Positions 2,622 to 23,698 of a stretch of DNA of 23,733 nt are shown here, piece after piece. The notes below the pieces were generated by a model that was not told the DNA's origin, ran no database searches, and was given only the letters and a program-made list of their open reading frames with translations. The DNA is from a virus, in the IMG/VR virus record IMGVR_UViG_3300044818_000005, positions 1 to 23,733 of that record. One strand, given 5' to 3'. The translations under genes were made by a program, and so were the position numbers. Numbering within the stretch: the first letter of the stretch is position 1; each line of letters starts with the position of its first letter.

Positions 2622-5269
2622 TGCGCCATCATCTCTTCTTTCATAAGAACGGAAGCGGTCACTACCCGGTGGCCGTCCTGATGAAGCAATACACGTTCGA
2701 TCAGGCACTGATTCACAAACATTACGTTCAACCGCTGAAAGATCGAGGGATTCCACAGGAAGACTGCATTGCCTTCACCCTTTCGTATGAAACTGCGAAA
2801 AAAGTGTCGGCAGCGCAGGTAAAGTCGTATTCAGCGAACTTGCTAAAGGTGCTGGACCGTGCGCATGTGAAATACATCTACTGCACCGATGGCACCTACT
2901 TCAAATACCTCACCGGGCAGAAGAAAGCAGAGGTTCACCTCGGATATTCGTTGCCTTGTGCCATTCCTGGCTTCGAGCACATGCAAGTCGTGCTTGGCGT
3001 CAACTATCAGGTGCTGGTTTACGCACCTGACAAGAAGGCACACCTCGACCAAGGTCTGGACGCACTGTGCAGTGTGTACAAGGGTAACTACGTGCCGCCC
3101 GGGGATCAGATCATCCATTCGGAGTTCTATCCGAAGACAGCGAACGAAATCCGCAATGCTTTGATGGAACTGCACAAGTTCCCTCACTTGGCGATGGACA
3201 TTGAGGGCTACAGCCTTCGATTGGATGAATCCGGCATTGCGACCTTCGCATTGGCCTGGACGAAGCATGACTTCATCGCTTTTCCAGTCGATCTGAACGA
3301 TCTTGGCGCAAAGGACGCCGACGGCAACTATCACTACCGCAAGGACAACAAAGAGGTTCGTGAGATCCTCAAGGACTTCCTGCGGCAGTACATGGGCGGC
3401 AAACGTTTCCACAGTGCCACCTATGACGTGAAACACCTGATCTACAACCTCTGGATGCGTGATCCGCTCGATTACAAGAGCTGTCTGGAAGGTTTGGACA
3501 TCATGTGCCGTAATCTGGACTGCACGAAGGTACTGAGCTATCTGGCAGTCAATTCGTGTGCGGGAAACACCTTGGGTCTGAAGTATCAGTCACAGGAGTT
3601 CACCGGCAACTATGCACAGGACGATATCAAGGATATCCGAAAGATCGACCTGCCAAACCTGCTCCGTTACAACGGTGTGGACTGCATGGCGACGAACTAC
3701 ACCTTCGATAAGCATATGCCGACGGTTGTGGCCGACAATCAGCTTGAGTTGTACAACGGGCTGATGAAGGACTCCATGAAGCTGATCATCAACGTTGAGT
3801 TGGTTGGTCTGCCGATGTGCCCGAAGAAGGTCACCGAAACCAAGGAAAAACTGGAGAAGCTGCAAGAGCAATACTTGCTGACCATCCAGAATGATCCAAT
3901 GGTGGCGAAGCTCAACTATCTGCTGCAAGTCTCGGCGATGGAGACGGCTAATGCCAAACTGAAGACGAAACAGCATCCACTGGAGAAATTCAGCGACACG
4001 GTCTTCAATCCCGGGTCAAACCTGCAATTGCAACGTCTGTTGTACGAATTGCTCGATTTGCCGATCCTTGCCCGGACGCCTACCAAGGCACCGGCCACTG
4101 GTGGCAAAATCATCAAGCAATTGCTCGATCACGCCAAAGCAGCGCCGTATAAGGAGCTGTTGCAAGCATTGATCGACTATTCGGCGGTGACCAAGATTCT
4201 TCAGGCGTTTATGCCTGCATTCGAGAATGGAATCCTTAAAGCCGATGGCATGCGCTACATCCACGGTGTTTTCAACCTTGGCGGTACGGTATCAGGTAGA
4301 TTGTCCTCATCTGATCCAAACCTCCAGAATTTGCCAGCGGGGTCCGCATATGGTCAGTTGATTAAAGAAATGGTCATGGCACCGCTGGGTTGGTTGTTCT
4401 GTGGGGCAGACTTTAACAGTTTGGAGGATTATATCTCCGCGCTGACCACACGCGACCCAAACAAGCTAAAAGTGTACATCGACGGCTACGACGGTCACTG
4501 TTTGCGTGCCTATGCGTACTTCAAGGACCAAATGCCTGACATTGACCCATCTTCAGTCGATTCGATCAATAGCATCGCTAAAAAGTACAAACACCTTCGC
4601 CAAGAGTCGAAAGCTCCAACTTTCGCCTTAACTTACCAGGGCACCTTCGCAACACTGATGAAAAACCTTGGTTGGTCCGAAGAGAAGGCAAAACGTATCG
4701 AAGCGAACTTCCACAGCTTGTATAAGGCGTCCACCGAGTACATTCACGACCGTTTGGTGCAAGCCACCAAAGATGGTTACATCACCGTAGCGTTTGGTTT
4801 GCGTTTGCGCACGCCGATGCTCGGCCGGTCATATCTTGGCCTTGCCTGCACCCCTAAAGAGGTGGCGGCTGAAGGTCGTACCGCGGGCAACGCAATGGGC
4901 CAGTCTTACGGCCTGCTGAACAACCGTGCGGCTGCGGCATTCATGAAGCTGGTTTGGGTAAGTCCTTACCGTTACGACATCAAACCAGTGTGTTTAATAC
5001 ATGACTCCATATACTTGATCGTCAAGAACGATCCTGTCATCATTGCGTGGGTCAACAAGCATTTGACGCAGGAAATGGCATGGCAGGATCTACCTGAGCT
5101 GGAACATCCAACTGTGAAGATTGGTGCAGAGATGGACGTGCATTATCAGAACTGGGCGCAGCCTGTCACATTACCTGTCGATGCTGACGTTGAAACCATC
5201 AAACGTTTGTGCAAAGAAGGCAAAGCGAAGTATGACGAGCAAAACCTGCAAAAGTTGTCTGCTGCATAA
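2621..5269 (+). CDS. DNA polymerase I-like (family A) with 3'-5' exonuclease
   Basis: 882 aa, GTG start with AAGGAG upstream (2609-2613 region). Replicative or repair polymerase of the phage. Exonuclease motifs: Exo I D193-I-E195, Exo II D269 in HSATYD, Exo III Y350-N-G-V-D354. Polymerase motif A is D597-F-N-S-L-E602; motif B is R660-x3-K664-x3-F668-x3-Y672; motif C is H794-D795-S796. There is no 5'-3' exonuclease domain; the ~180 residues before Exo I are not recognised. Two deviations from the family consensus: motif B reads Y-Q-G where Y-G is usual, and motif C is HDS where HDE is usual. All catalytic aspartates are present, so activity is expected. The last 38 bp overlap an HNH-type gene. 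I give no gene symbol because phage naming varies. Confidence 0.95.
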   Translation: MRHHLFFHKNGSGHYPVAVLMKQYTFDQALIHKHYVQPLKDRGIPQEDCIAFTLSYETAKKVSAAQVKSYSANLLKVLDRAHVKYIYCTDGTYFKYLTGQKKAEVHLGYSLPCAIPGFEHMQVVLGVNYQVLVYAPDKKAHLDQGLDALCSVYKGNYVPPGDQIIHSEFYPKTANEIRNALMELHKFPHLAMDIEGYSLRLDESGIATFALAWTKHDFIAFPVDLNDLGAKDADGNYHYRKDNKEVREILKDFLRQYMGGKRFHSATYDVKHLIYNLWMRDPLDYKSCLEGLDIMCRNLDCTKVLSYLAVNSCAGNTLGLKYQSQEFTGNYAQDDIKDIRKIDLPNLLRYNGVDCMATNYTFDKHMPTVVADNQLELYNGLMKDSMKLIINVELVGLPMCPKKVTETKEKLEKLQEQYLLTIQNDPMVAKLNYLLQVSAMETANAKLKTKQHPLEKFSDTVFNPGSNLQLQRLLYELLDLPILARTPTKAPATGGKIIKQLLDHAKAAPYKELLQALIDYSAVTKILQAFMPAFENGILKADGMRYIHGVFNLGGTVSGRLSSSDPNLQNLPAGSAYGQLIKEMVMAPLGWLFCGADFNSLEDYISALTTRDPNKLKVYIDGYDGHCLRAYAYFKDQMPDIDPSSVDSINSIAKKYKHLRQESKAPTFALTYQGTFATLMKNLGWSEEKAKRIEANFHSLYKASTEYIHDRLVQATKDGYITVAFGLRLRTPMLGRSYLGLACTPKEVAAEGRTAGNAMGQSYGLLNNRAAAAFMKLVWVSPYRYDIKPVCLIHDSIYLIVKNDPVIIAWVNKHLTQEMAWQDLPELEHPTVKIGAEMDVHYQNWAQPVTLPVDADVETIKRLCKEGKAKYDEQNLQKLSAA

Positions 5270-5852
5270 GCCATACTGGGACTTCTCCCGTGCCCCTCGC
5301 AATTGTGATGGTCACGGGAATTTGTGCAAGCCTTGTGTAGTTATTAAAAACACACGGTATTGGCAAACCCCATATGGACGCATTAGTTACATCCGTAATA
5401 CGCAAAAGACCTCATCTAAAGCCAGAGGGCATGATTTGCCCACTTACACACAAAACGAGCTGTACGATTGGGCTGTAGCCAATAATCTGTTCGCTTTGTG
5501 TGATTCGTGGGAGGCCGCAGGCTTCCCTAAGCACTTAGCTCCATCAATTGACCGAAAAGATGTAAATATCGGGTATTCCTTCGAGAATATCCGTTTGGTT
5601 ACGTGGCAGGAGAATAATGACGCACAATACGCAGATCGTAAGACCTGCAAGGTAGTTACTCGCCAAAATCGCACAGTTCGTCAATTGAGCTTGTCTGGGG
5701 AGCTGATTGCAACGCATAAATCAATAGCGGCTGCTGCTCGTGCAACTGGAGCTGTCCGCACCAATATCAACTGCATGTGCTCGGGTACCAACTCAGCCAT
5801 CAAATCTGTAGGCGGCTTCCTATGGGAATACGCTGAAAAGGAAGCTGCATGA
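5232..5852 (+). CDS. HNH-type homing endonuclease-like protein with zinc ribbon and NUMOD1-like tail
   Basis: 206 aa from ATG 5232, inside the polymerase 3' end (38-bp overlap, different frame). The frame is open further upstream but only as polymerase shadow. The N-terminus has a zinc-ribbon pattern C6-x2-C9...C32-x2-C35. The central block PSIDRKDVNIGYSFENIRLV followed by TWQENN resembles the second half of HNH nucleases; the usual histidine before the D is not evident (S-I-D-R), so catalysis is unproven. The C-terminal ~50 residues (LSGELIATHKSIAAAARATG, then a GGFLWEY ending) look like a NUMOD1/IENR1 DNA-binding repeat typical of intron- or intergene-encoded homing endonucleases. It is probably a selfish element settled next to the polymerase gene. 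Confidence 0.8.
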   Translation: MTSKTCKSCLLHKPYWDFSRAPRNCDGHGNLCKPCVVIKNTRYWQTPYGRISYIRNTQKTSSKARGHDLPTYTQNELYDWAVANNLFALCDSWEAAGFPKHLAPSIDRKDVNIGYSFENIRLVTWQENNDAQYADRKTCKVVTRQNRTVRQLSLSGELIATHKSIAAAARATGAVRTNINCMCSGTNSAIKSVGGFLWEYAEKEAA

Positions 5853-17612: not shown

Positions 17613-17861
17613 GTTTGTATGTTTTTTGTTCAATTCTCTGGTCACTCCCCACCATCGACGGACTCCGTGCTCGCGTCGGGTCCGCTGCGCGGCCCTAGCG
17701 GCACTGCACCGTCTCGGTGTGTCGTGCCCGGGTATGTGGTTGGGGGTGAGGTGACGTTGCTCCCTCCGGGAGCCTTTGCGATTGCTGAGGCAAATCGGGG
17801 AGGTGAGCCCCTCTTCTTATATATGTCCGTTTCGCTTGATCATTTTTTAATCAGGATTCCC
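17613..17861 (+). promoter_or_regulatory. Non-coding leader of the rightward replication operon
   Basis: The gap from 17558 to 17861 (304 bp) has no credible gene. After the terminator it turns GC-rich and holds a series of small hairpins: CACCG-TCT-CGGTG (17707-17719), GCTCCC-TCC-GGGAGC (17759-17773) and GGGG...CCCC (17797-17811). An AT-rich stretch follows (TTATATAT at 17817-17824) with a run of six T near 17844-17849, then AGGA before ATG 17862. An early promoter is expected here, but I see no clear -35/-10 pair. Confidence 0.45.
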
Positions 17862-19909: not shown

Positions 19910-22066
19910 ATGAAAGCTGTCGAAGACATGTCGTATAACCCTGAAGTGGAGGACGTAGTACGCATTCTGTGTGAAAAGACACAGAGTTCGAACCATCTGT
20001 TCTTCCGCGTGCTGACGACGTTCCACCTGTGCATGATTGCATCACAGATGCGGGTATTGATTCGCACCCACGACCGGGGTGACATCCCGGTCAACATGTA
20101 CGCGCTGAACCTCGCCACATCCGGTGCCGGTAAAGGCTTCTCGACGAACATTCTGGAAAAGGAGATAACCAACCAATTCCGCAGCCGTTTCCTCGAAAAC
20201 TTCCCGTTCACTGCTGAACCGAACCTCGAAAAGCTCGCGCTCAAGCGATCTTCCCGGGACTCGACGGAATACGACTTTGAAGTAGAGAAAATCAAGAAGG
20301 AGTTCGCCTCCCTTGGTCCTCTGGTTTATAGCTTCGACTCCGGTACCCCGGCTGCGGTAAAGCAGATGCGGCACAAGCTGTTGCTCGCAGATGCGGGCGC
20401 AGTAAACCTGATCATCGACGAAATCGGTTCCAACCTGTCGTCTAGTTCCGAAGTGCTCACAACACTGCTGGAATTGTTCGATATGGGGGGTATTCGTCAG
20501 AAGATCACCAAAGTGACTGCCGAGAACGTCCGTCACGAGGAAATCGACGGCAACACGCCGACGAACCTCATGATGTTCGGCACACCGTCGAAATTGCTCG
20601 ATGGTGGTAAGACGGAAGACGAGCTGATCTCATTGCTCGATACCGGCTACGCTCGCCGCTGTTTCTTCAGTTATGGCAAAGAAAGCACCCGCGATCTGTC
20701 GCTTTCGGCTGAAGAGATCTATGACCGGATGACGAACAAGGTTTCATCCACGTTCGTCGAGTCATTCAGTGAAAAACTGGGCTACTTGGCCGATTCGCAC
20801 AACATGGGTACCGTGTTGACGATGACAAAGGAAACCAGCTTGCTGGTGATCCAGTACAAGATCGACTGCGAGCGTTTGGCTGATTCCCTGCCCGAACACG
20901 AAGAACAACGCAAAGCGGAAATCTCTCACCGATATTTCAAAGCCTTGAAGGCTGCCGGTGCCTATGCGTTCATCGACGGCTCACCTGAGCTGACGGAAAC
21001 GCACTTCTACCAAGCAGTCCGACTGGCCGAAGAAAGCGGTAAGGCCTTCGAGCTTCTGCTGTCTCGTGAACGCCCTTACGTCAAGCTGGCGAACTATCTG
21101 GGCAACTGCGGCACGGAAGTGACCGAACCGGACCTGATGCAAGACTTGCCCTATTACAAGGGCAGTCAGGCAGCGCGTGCGGACATGGTCAAGATGGCAA
21201 TTGCCTGGGGCTACAAGAACAACGTCATCATCAAGAAGGCTTTCACCGACGGGATTGAGTTCCTGCGTGGTGAGAAGCTGAAGGTCACTGACCTGACCAA
21301 GATGGTGGTGTCGTATGCCCGTGGCGGTGCCGGTGAACACCCTGCGCACGGTTACGCAAACAAGACCGCACCATGGACTCAACTGGAACGTCTTGTCACA
21401 GGAACTGACCTGCACTGGCTTAATCACCATGTTCACGGTGGCCATCGCACCGAGGATACCTGTATCCCCGGTTTCAACATGATCGTGCTGGATATCGACG
21501 GGACAATGAACTTGTCTACGGCGAAGATGCTGATGAAAGATTATGCAGCGATCTACTACACGACCAAGCGTCACACTGAAGAAGAGAACCGGTTCCGTAT
21601 TGTTCTTCCGACGAACTACGTCCTGCAAATGGATGCGAAGGAATACAAGGAATTCATGAAGAACGTGCTGGAATCCCTGCCGTTCGAAGTGGATGAGTCT
21701 TGCACTCACCGGAGCAAGAAATGGATGTCTCACAACACCCATTTTGAGCAAACAGAGGGCGAGTTGTTCGATGTCCTCCCATTCATCCCAAAAACCAGTA
21801 AAAACGAAGAACGTCTTCAGCGACTGGGTTCCCAGCAGCAGATGGACAATCTCGAACGCTGGATCATCAACAACACGGGCGATGGCAACCGCAATGTCAT
21901 GTTGCACCGCTATGCCCGTCTGTTGATTGAAGCCGGGAAGAACTGGGCGGAAATCAAGGACTGCGTCACGTCTCTCAACGATAAGTTGGCAGACAAGTTG
22001 TCCGAAGCCGAAATCCTCGGCTCCATCATGGTCACTGTCGGCAAAGAGCTGGCAGCTCGCCCTTAA
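19910..22066 (+). CDS. Primase-helicase: N-terminal ATPase fused to C-terminal AEP-like primase
   Basis: 718 aa, GGAG at 19900-19903. The N-terminal half is a P-loop ATPase of DUF3987-like type: Walker A S71-G-A-G-K75-G-F-S, Walker B L-I-I-D170-E171, and a later G-Y-A-R-R-C segment as possible arginine finger. The C-terminal ~200 residues match an archaeo-eukaryotic primase core: motif I V-L-D528-I-D530, motif II T-T-K-R-H555 followed by ENRFRIVLP, and motif III E-V-D595. It would unwind DNA and lay down primers at the phage fork. The domain order (ATPase first, primase last) is opposite to the common primase-then-helicase fusions. Family names are from motif reading only. Confidence 0.82.
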   Translation: MKAVEDMSYNPEVEDVVRILCEKTQSSNHLFFRVLTTFHLCMIASQMRVLIRTHDRGDIPVNMYALNLATSGAGKGFSTNILEKEITNQFRSRFLENFPFTAEPNLEKLALKRSSRDSTEYDFEVEKIKKEFASLGPLVYSFDSGTPAAVKQMRHKLLLADAGAVNLIIDEIGSNLSSSSEVLTTLLELFDMGGIRQKITKVTAENVRHEEIDGNTPTNLMMFGTPSKLLDGGKTEDELISLLDTGYARRCFFSYGKESTRDLSLSAEEIYDRMTNKVSSTFVESFSEKLGYLADSHNMGTVLTMTKETSLLVIQYKIDCERLADSLPEHEEQRKAEISHRYFKALKAAGAYAFIDGSPELTETHFYQAVRLAEESGKAFELLLSRERPYVKLANYLGNCGTEVTEPDLMQDLPYYKGSQAARADMVKMAIAWGYKNNVIIKKAFTDGIEFLRGEKLKVTDLTKMVVSYARGGAGEHPAHGYANKTAPWTQLERLVTGTDLHWLNHHVHGGHRTEDTCIPGFNMIVLDIDGTMNLSTAKMLMKDYAAIYYTTKRHTEEENRFRIVLPTNYVLQMDAKEYKEFMKNVLESLPFEVDESCTHRSKKWMSHNTHFEQTEGELFDVLPFIPKTSKNEERLQRLGSQQQMDNLERWIINNTGDGNRNVMLHRYARLLIEAGKNWAEIKDCVTSLNDKLADKLSEAEILGSIMVTVGKELAARP

Positions 22067-22076
22067 CCTTCACACT

Positions 22077-22100
22077 GGCCCCGTCCCGGGGCTGTTGTGA
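22077..22100 (+). repeat. 24-bp direct repeat, copy 1, with GC hairpin
   Basis: It begins 11 bp after the primase stop and ends 20 bp before the Sak4-like ATG. It contains GCCCCG-TCC-CGGGGC (22078-22092), a perfect 6-bp stem with triloop, followed by TGTTGTGA. It is identical over 24 bp to 22839-22862. There is no U-tract, so it is not a classical terminator; more likely it is an mRNA-processing, stability or translation-control element. Confidence 0.85.
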
Positions 22101-22120
22101 TCTCTTTCAGGAGTATTTCA

Positions 22121-22834
22121 ATGAACGAACATTTGGCGCTTATTTGCGGCAAATCGGGCAGCGGTAAGTCTGCTTCCCTGCGCAATCTGCGCGATCCCGA
22201 ATCGGTTCTGTATTTGAACTGTGAAGCGGGCAAACGACTGCCTTTCCCGGCGAAGTTCACCCAGAAAACGGTAACCAACCCAAACCAAGTGAAAGAAGCT
22301 TTCGGTTGGGCCGAGAAGCAGGATCACATCAAGGTCATCATCGTTGACACCTTGACCTTCTGGCTTGATATGTACATCAGCCAGTACGTCCGCACCGCCG
22401 TTGATGGCCGTGCCGCGTGGGGTAACTTCGCGGAGTTCTTCCGCTCCACCATGCAGGCCGACGTGGCTAAGTCTTCCAAGAAGGTCATCTTCCTGGCTCA
22501 CGTCCTCGACGTGTACAACGAAACTGCCATGGTCATGGAAACCGCGATCCCTGTCGCCGGCTCCCTGAAGAACCAAGGCATCGAAGCCTACTTCTCCATG
22601 GTGCTCATGTGCCAGAAGATCAAGGTAGATGACCTTACTGAAGAAAGTGATCTGCTGAAGATTACCGACCGCGAGAAAGCCGTCGGCTTCAAGCACGTCT
22701 ACCAGACCCAGATCACCAAGGACACGATCAACACTCGTATTCGTGGCCCGATGATGCTCTGGGGTGACAACGAAACCTACATCGACAACGACATCCAGAT
22801 GGTCCTCGACCGTCTCGACTCCTACTATCAATAG
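22121..22834 (+). CDS. Sak4-like RecA-fold ATPase
   Basis: 237 aa from ATG 22121 with CAGGAG upstream; the eight earlier codons run through the leader. Walker A G10-K-S-G-S-G-K16-S17 lies at the very N-terminus; Walker B is V-I-I-V-D76-T. A compact RecA-like core without extra domains matches the Sak4 group (AAA_24-type), phage single-strand annealing proteins that act with a cognate SSB. The next gene is an SSB-like protein, exactly the expected partner, and a RecB-type nuclease is two genes upstream. A role in replication-linked recombination is therefore likely. Confidence 0.82.
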   Translation: MNEHLALICGKSGSGKSASLRNLRDPESVLYLNCEAGKRLPFPAKFTQKTVTNPNQVKEAFGWAEKQDHIKVIIVDTLTFWLDMYISQYVRTAVDGRAAWGNFAEFFRSTMQADVAKSSKKVIFLAHVLDVYNETAMVMETAIPVAGSLKNQGIEAYFSMVLMCQKIKVDDLTEESDLLKITDREKAVGFKHVYQTQITKDTINTRIRGPMMLWGDNETYIDNDIQMVLDRLDSYYQ

Positions 22835-22838
22835 CAGC

Positions 22839-22862
22839 GGCCCCGTCCCGGGGCTGTTGTGA
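22839..22862 (+). repeat. 24-bp direct repeat, copy 2, with GC hairpin
   Basis: Exact copy of 22077-22100, starting 5 bp after the Sak4-like stop and ending 30 bp before the SSB ATG. The hairpin stem is 22840-22845 with 22849-22854. The flanking sequences differ from copy 1 immediately on both sides, so the repeat unit is sharply bounded. Confidence 0.85.
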
Positions 22863-22892
22863 ATTTCCTTCTCATAATTTTGGAGCAACACC

Positions 22893-23669
22893 ATGAATCC
22901 TTTTGCCTCTACCGCTAACACCAGTAACGACAAGATCGAAGAAGACAGCGACCGCCTTGGCGGCAGCTTCGTCTGGGACTCCAACGCATACGAAGTCACC
23001 GTGCTGTCTGCCTATGCAGGCAAGTCGAAAGGTGGCGCCGGTTCCATGAACTTCGAAGTCCAAGGTCCGGACGGCCGCAAGTTCAAGTTCACCGAGTGGG
23101 TCACCTCGGGCGATGCCAAAGGCAACAAGCCGTACTACGAACGTGACGGCAAGAAGTCCTACCTGCCTGGCTTCAACAACGTGAACGCCATCGCGATGTT
23201 CTGCACCAAGAAAGAACTGAACGCGCTGACCTTCGAAACCAAAATCGTCAAGCTACGTAACTTCGATACCAAGACCGACGTTCCGACCGAAGTGCCAATG
23301 GCTGTCGAGCTGATCGGCAAGAAGTTCATCCTCGGTCTGCTGAAGGTCGAAGAAAACAAAACCAAAAAGGTAGGCAACGACTACCTGCCGGTTTGCGATG
23401 CAACTGGCGCACCGATCACCAAGTTCACCAACGAAATCGGCAAGATCTTCTACCCGGACAACAAGTGCACCATTGCTGAGCTGCGTGCAGCCAAGCAGTC
23501 GGGTTCCGCACCGGTTGCCGACTTCTACACCAAGTGGATCGAAGCCAATGCTGGCAAGGTCATCGACAAGGTCAAGAAGGAAGGTCTGGTCCCAGAAACT
23601 GGAGGTGCCGGCCCTGCTGGTACCCCAACCGACGCTACCGGCGCCGAAGTCGATTCGCTGTTCGACTGA
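22893..23669 (+). CDS. SSB-like single-stranded DNA-binding protein
   Basis: 258 aa, TTTTGGAG upstream of ATG. Residues ~25-160 are a beta-rich, Lys/Arg- and aromatic-containing domain consistent with an OB fold (WDSNAYEVTVLSAYAGKSKG, MNFEVQGPDGRKFKF). A linker rich in Gly/Pro/Thr/Ala follows, with an acidic tip ending D-S-L-F-D like the protein-docking tails of SSBs. It would coat ssDNA at the fork and load or stimulate the adjacent Sak4-like protein. It is longer than E. coli SSB (178 aa). Fold assignment is by composition, tail and context, without a diagnostic motif. Confidence 0.75.
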   Translation: MNPFASTANTSNDKIEEDSDRLGGSFVWDSNAYEVTVLSAYAGKSKGGAGSMNFEVQGPDGRKFKFTEWVTSGDAKGNKPYYERDGKKSYLPGFNNVNAIAMFCTKKELNALTFETKIVKLRNFDTKTDVPTEVPMAVELIGKKFILGLLKVEENKTKKVGNDYLPVCDATGAPITKFTNEIGKIFYPDNKCTIAELRAAKQSGSAPVADFYTKWIEANAGKVIDKVKKEGLVPETGGAGPAGTPTDATGAEVDSLFD

Positions 23670-23679
23670 ACACCACCAT

Positions 23680-23698
23680 GGGTCGGGTAACCGGCCCC
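23680..23698 (+). other. Intercistronic GC hairpin after SSB gene
   Basis: GGGTCGG (23680-23686), loop GTAA, CCGGCCC (23691-23697): a 7-bp stem with one T-G pair. It starts 10 bp after the SSB stop and lies directly before CTTTCAGGAG, the same Shine-Dalgarno context as follows repeat copy 1. It is analogous in position to the 24-bp repeats but different in sequence. Confidence 0.65.

Follow-up and report, generated by a model that had tools for sequence, protein, structure and literature searches.

Two of the three hairpins that lie between the genes of a primase-Sak4-SSB operon in phage DNA prove, on comparison with relatives, to belong to a conserved RNA element of N4-like phages. This element, which we call the UCC element, starts with AG, continues with a hairpin whose stem has 6 G+C-rich pairs and whose loop is UCC, and finishes with the tail UUUUGYGAU. 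It appears to have been previously unlabelled; the LUZ7 long-read transcriptome or the Drc paper may already list sites as terminators. Selection for structure in the UCC element is strongly supported by compensatory changes at six stem pairs, a fixed loop and a strand bias.

RESULTS

Hairpins of the window and their gene context

The window, by which we mean the whole stretch of 23,733 nucleotides analysed, comes, by its closest matches, from a Pseudomonas phage of the N4-like family Schitoviridae, of which it is a fragment. The nearest record, phCDa, is 79% identical across 86% of the query (18.5-23.7 kb of the window), and further close records include the Pseudomonas phages 98PfluR60PP, Littlefix, LUZ7 and others. 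The exonuclease, primase, Sak4-like and SSB genes around the hairpins are all on the + strand. N4 has its middle genes read by a T7-like heterodimeric RNA polymerase II, and its late genes, which lie on the opposite strand, by a host RNA polymerase that the phage SSB activates (PMC4496689). An open reading frame at 5121-5852 of the window, between the DNA polymerase and later genes, resembles by eye a free-standing HNH-type endonuclease. The features discussed below are the following.

17755..17783, + strand: third UCC element of the window, GCTCCC-TCC-GGGAGC, in a divergent control region (triloop scan; covariance model E 4.5e-8, its sequence being in the model)
17817..17834, + strand: probable middle promoter TTATATATGTCCGTTTCG (sequence comparison; kept in LUZ7, phCDa and Littlefix)
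19910..22066, + strand: DNA primase gene, N4 gp43-like (phrog_2135, E 0)
22070..22100, + strand: hairpin 1, a UCC element in the primase-Sak4 gap (RNA fold; covariance-model match)
22077..22100, + strand: 24-nt unit, copy 1 (exact repeat)
22093..22102, + strand: conserved 3' flank of hairpin 1, UGUUGUGAUC, family consensus UUUUGYGAU (column counts)
22121..22834, + strand: Sak4-like ssDNA annealing protein gene, N4 gp44-like (phrog_124, E 2e-43)
22835..22859, + strand: hairpin 2, a UCC element in the Sak4-SSB gap (RNA fold; covariance-model match)
22839..22862, + strand: 24-nt unit, copy 2 (exact repeat)
22893..23669, + strand: single-strand DNA-binding protein (SSB) gene, N4 gp45-like (phrog_743, E 6e-61)
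23680..23697, + strand: hairpin 3, after the SSB stop, with a 7-bp stem and a GUAA (GNRA) tetraloop (RNA fold; relatives)

The initial annotation had placed a GC-rich hairpin between the stop codon and the next Shine-Dalgarno in each of the three gaps, and all three indeed fold stably as RNA: gap 1 at -21.2 kcal/mol (z -3.3, pairs 22070-22100), gap 2 at -21.4 kcal/mol (z -2.7, pairs 22835-22859) and gap 3 at -14.0 kcal/mol (z -1.9, pairs 23680-23697, loop GUAA). The reported identity of hairpins 1 and 2 over 24 bp is likewise borne out, the unit GGCCCCGTCCCGGGGCTGTTGTGA at 22077-22100 recurring at 22839-22862 with 100% identity, where chance would yield about 1e-6 exact 24-mer repeats in a window of this size. 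Hairpin 1 has the stem GCCCCG/CGGGGC, its UCC loop at 22084-22086 and an outer UCACA/UGUGA stem, whereas hairpin 2, which abuts the TAG stop at 22832-22834, is extended by CAGC; the two thus differ in structure. The covariance model matches hairpin 1 at 22074-22102 with 33.1 bits and E 1e-8, its own sequence being included in the model, and hairpin 2 at 22836-22864 with E 1e-6. Rfam at gathering score gave no match over the hairpins; two sub-threshold matches fell elsewhere.

Some of what had been said of the surrounding sequence has to be modified. The following sequence, described as kept, is CTTTCAGGAG after hairpins 1 and 3, but gap 2 has ATTTTGGAG. The absence of U-tracts is true only roughly, as the tails of hairpins 1 and 2 contain a short, broken U-run (UGUUGU), and a simple terminator scan flags hairpin 2 only among the window's hairpins. 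The argument that similar structures made by different sequences betray selection finds strong covariation in its favour, but hairpins 1 and 2 and hairpin 3 turn out to be two different elements.

Hairpin 3 is, by its loop and its relatives, an element separate from the UCC family that likewise covaries and folds as RNA, and its purpose is probably similar. In relatives, a 7-bp stem with a GNRA loop is kept past the SSB stop through compensatory changes: at this same place we find UGGGCAG-GCAA-CUGCCCA and GGGGCAG-GCAA-CUGCCCC, and also GGGUCGG-GUAA-CCGGCCC, with the 3' arm CCGACCC in phCDa. Such hairpins recall GNRA-loop 3' hairpins in being tetraloop stems after a stop codon, and in the distant L131 a GCAA hairpin is followed by a U-rich tail, whereas the window's hairpin 3 has no U-run.

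A family of UCC elements with covarying stems

In a triloop scan of the window, phCDa, Littlefix, LUZ7 and N4, TCC was the commonest loop everywhere except in N4, and perfect TCC hairpins of at least 6 bp were almost confined to the + strand. Sak4 relatives were drawn from viral contigs for gap comparison; in their primase-Sak4 gap nearly all triloop hairpins of at least 5 bp carry TCC while the stems are diverse, and a UCC hairpin occupies this same gap in many N4-like phages. The search of the genome and relatives for the 24-bp unit, proposed earlier, thus uncovered a wider family, although the exact duplicate itself is not conserved in relatives.

When intergenic sites were pooled, 45 non-redundant members remained, in which A and G precede the stem and T-T-T-T-G-Y-G-A-T follows it; position 7 of this 3' flank is G in 38 of the 45 and position 8 is A in 32. 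The check for compensatory changes across homologous gaps came out in favour of a conserved structure, with double changes at all six UCC stem pairs (80 cells in the covariation alignment) and covariation in hairpin 3 too. Members of this alignment were picked for perfect stems, and its 100% pairing is therefore by construction; a MAFFT alignment of mixed loop sizes, which was misaligned, was left out of the counts. In an unbiased test, sites were chosen on the TCC loop and 3' flank alone, and stem complementarity was then scored. The result was two-humped, with 41 of 101 + strand sites pairing at 5-6 of six positions, compared with 0 such sites on the - strand and a handful at most for nine other loops.

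The strand bias is equally pronounced across 1.7 Mb of N4-like phage DNA, a set that contains some overlapping loci and in which identical sites were counted once. Here, 88 intergenic perfect 6-bp UCC triloops lie on the early/middle (+) strand versus 4 on the other, and the other triloops tested reach at most 7 each, 'intergenic' being set in most loci by a simple ORF caller. The covariance model found 20 + strand sites with E <0.01 in the window, phCDa, Littlefix and LUZ7, many of which were in the model, and detected no copy in N4 itself. The late strand of the complete genomes held no strong UCC copy; the sole - strand match, in phCDa, proved to be a classical terminator with a poly-T run, located at a convergent end, and was rejected. 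Contigs picked solely by the 15-mer core scored >24 bits only where the element's flanks or this gene region were present, and many of these had also come up separately among the Sak4 relatives; other contigs contain the 15-mer core by itself, with scores of only 15-18 bits.

Imperfect stems with one non-Watson-Crick pair have G.U in 20 cases versus A.C in 5 (p 0.004; about one third of the sites may be background). This excess of G.U over A.C points to the sense RNA as the folded strand, not to a hairpin in template-strand DNA. The homologous gap of more distant phages shows varied loop sizes with UCC kept (TCC, CTCC, ATCC, TCCG, TTCCC), and the tail in these phages is the same as in UCC elements.

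Placement in the genomes

Among the 54 elements located between two + genes, 47 start 0-22 nt past the upstream stop, one of these overlapping the stop by a base, and the distance to the next start, with gene starts taken from a simple ORF caller, is broad. Where the polymerase II gene of phCDa, LUZ7 and Littlefix ends, a UCC element lies immediately 5' of a poly-T terminator. More widely, 23 of 72 non-redundant loci, a few of them perhaps by chance, have a TCC-containing hairpin no more than 160 nt past the stop of the polymerase II large subunit, and 15 of these 23 also have a poly-T run. The element precedes the poly-T in phCDa, LUZ7 and KPP21 types, and the classical terminator comes first in L172, L173, L177 and L200. 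UCC elements also occur after other middle genes.

Four divergent regions between tail-fibre and replication genes (window 17740-17850, LUZ7 35200-35350, phCDa 67560-67680, Littlefix 71560-71680) have a UCC hairpin just upstream of a conserved TTATATA...CCGTTTCG motif. This motif (TATATA...GTTTCG; in the window at 17817..17834, just downstream of the element at 17759) is probably the middle promoter, and the UCC hairpin of the divergent region looks like one arm of a larger, three-way paired structure.

Origin of the exact duplication

The exact duplication was rejected as a conserved feature because in the near relatives L063, L064 and L066 both stem and flank differ between the two gaps, gap 1 reading GCCCCGTCCCGGGGC-TTTTGTGATC and gap 2 reading GCCCCCTCCGTGGGC-TGTTGTGAAT. 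Both gaps of the window combine the gap-1 stem with the gap-2 tail. On this comparison, the 24-nt identity is best seen as recent homogenisation within the window's lineage, for which local gene conversion would be the simplest reading and parallel substitutions the alternative. Some relatives have extra DNA between Sak4 and SSB (L067 after 3097, L071 after 6708), and the UCC element stays beside SSB.

DISCUSSION

The reading that we favour, with somewhat less than even confidence, is that hairpins 1 and 2 serve the phage's T7-like RNA polymerase II as partial terminators, or attenuators. The UCC hairpin would form in the early/middle-strand transcript right past the stop codon, and the emerging hairpin with its U-rich tail would halt a fraction of the polymerase II molecules. 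This partial stop would leave Sak4, SSB and later genes lower relative to primase; elsewhere in the genome, UCC elements would end or insulate transcription units. The proposal is suggested by the tandem arrangement with terminators, whichever comes first, the position after stop codons, the U-rich tail, the folding as sense RNA and the restriction to the strand that the phage's own polymerases transcribe. RNA hairpins cause termination by the T7, T3 and SP6 polymerases (PMC11347151), which are related to N4 polymerase II. Like the intrinsic terminators of T7-like single-subunit polymerases, the UCC element combines a G+C-rich RNA hairpin with a U-rich stretch and stands in units read by a T7-like phage polymerase, often beside poly-T terminators. 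Unlike them, it has a conserved UCC loop and UGYGA tail, lies at intra-operon sites, and has a U-run that is broken and short, usually with 3-4 U among the 6 nt that follow the stem. This U-run argues against attenuation, as do the divergent-region element, which has no + gene ending just upstream, and N4, which has no copy detectable by the model. The T7 class II terminator (ATCTGTT, PMC9624206) was set aside as a model: some relatives have tails reading UCUGUGA, which match it in part, but this does not hold generally. For the UCC element we infer termination, polymerase II as the enzyme and the dose effect each from sequence, and the unequal protein doses proposed in the initial annotation would plausibly be set through termination or 3'-end formation.

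To our knowledge, ordinary terminators have no conserved loop sequence and no conserved downstream GYGA. The conserved loop and GYGA tail therefore set the element apart from typical terminators, and recognition by a sequence-reading protein may play a part. It is quite possible, though somewhat less likely than not, that the UCC element represents a new class of RNA signal found in many N4-like phages and only in early/middle-strand transcripts, whose UCC loop and UGYGA tail would be specifically read by the heterodimeric polymerase II or by a phage RNA-binding protein, such that the transcript is stopped or cut after chosen genes.

The main rival, which we regard as possible without being probable, dispenses with termination: the element would be bound or cut by a protein, from phage or host, that recognises the UCC loop together with the UGYGA tail, and would serve in processing middle transcripts, in protecting their 3' ends or in controlling their translation. 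Conservation of loop and tail sequence over varying stems speaks for such a site, and the position between stop codon and ribosome site suits processing. The T4 gene 43 translational operator may serve as an analogy, since it too is a conserved-loop hairpin upstream of a ribosome-binding site and its loop bases matter for binding of gp43 (PMC3014915). In contrast to that operator, UCC elements have many sites per genome and are tied to the upstream stop, not to one regulated gene. A binding or cleavage site does not predict that the element so often neighbours a classical terminator, on either side, and no candidate protein was found. The SSB alone is an unlikely reader, as sites lie far from its gene; autoregulation by SSB, which had been raised earlier, is disfavoured because UCC elements also follow the polymerase II gene and other middle genes and lie in the divergent region.

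A reading as a DNA promoter hairpin like those used by the N4 virion polymerase, which would give internal Sak4 and SSB transcripts, was considered first because of the TCC loop and now appears improbable. Two N4 hairpins (557-573 and 4546-4562), which are probably P2 and P3, have a TCC triloop (template GGA) in the same orientation as the UCC elements. Extrusion is favoured by a template loop with 5'G and 3'A (T-N-C in the non-template strand) and by a C:G closing pair (PMC4496689); the TCC loop agrees with the former, but the relatives show other loop sizes, and the window template reads GCCCCG-GGA-CGGGGC, without the C:G closing pair and without the -8G. Further, the purine that N4-type promoters have at +11 from the loop centre is T in 28 of the 45 UCC members, also in window hairpins 1 and 2. 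Unlike P1-P3, UCC elements have a 6-bp stem, lack a +1 purine, tolerate G.U and lie in middle operons, being found in the primase-Sak4-SSB region and from the polymerase II gene end onwards instead of in the early region, with many copies just upstream of a classical terminator. Moreover, phCDa, LUZ7 and Littlefix have separate probable early promoters, whose stems have 4-5 bp, whose loops read TTC or TAC and whose +11 base is a purine. Given the wobble bias, the variation in loop size, these distinct early promoters and the T at +11, UCC elements most likely act at the RNA level, outside the N4 promoter family.

The probable early promoters deserve a record of their own. Those of phCDa (29720, 29861, 31581) have TTC loops (template GAA) on 5-bp stems, and those of LUZ7 (3663-3707, 792) and Littlefix (33870, 34711, 39059), probably used by the virion polymerase, have TAC loops (template GTA), with a central pyrimidine where N4 needs a purine and a TGTAATGG-like start region.

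Least probable are spacer hairpins without sequence-specific function, stable stems that would shield upstream 3' ends or hinder ribosome run-on, which would fit the post-stop position and high stability but not the near-invariant UCC core, conserved tail and strong strand bias, since these need sequence-specific selection. A pseudoknot between the UCC loop and the GGA of a Shine-Dalgarno was set aside because some copies of the element have no ribosome site nearby.

If hairpins 1 and 2 are indeed attenuators, they would bear on the ratio of Sak4, SSB and primase, which matters for replication and, via SSB, for the switch to late transcription. Being short, with a defined loop, stem and tail and several copies per genome, the UCC element makes termination by polymerase II, or processing of middle mRNAs, directly testable. 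The UCC pattern should also be useful to annotators, as ordinary terminator finders tend to miss it.
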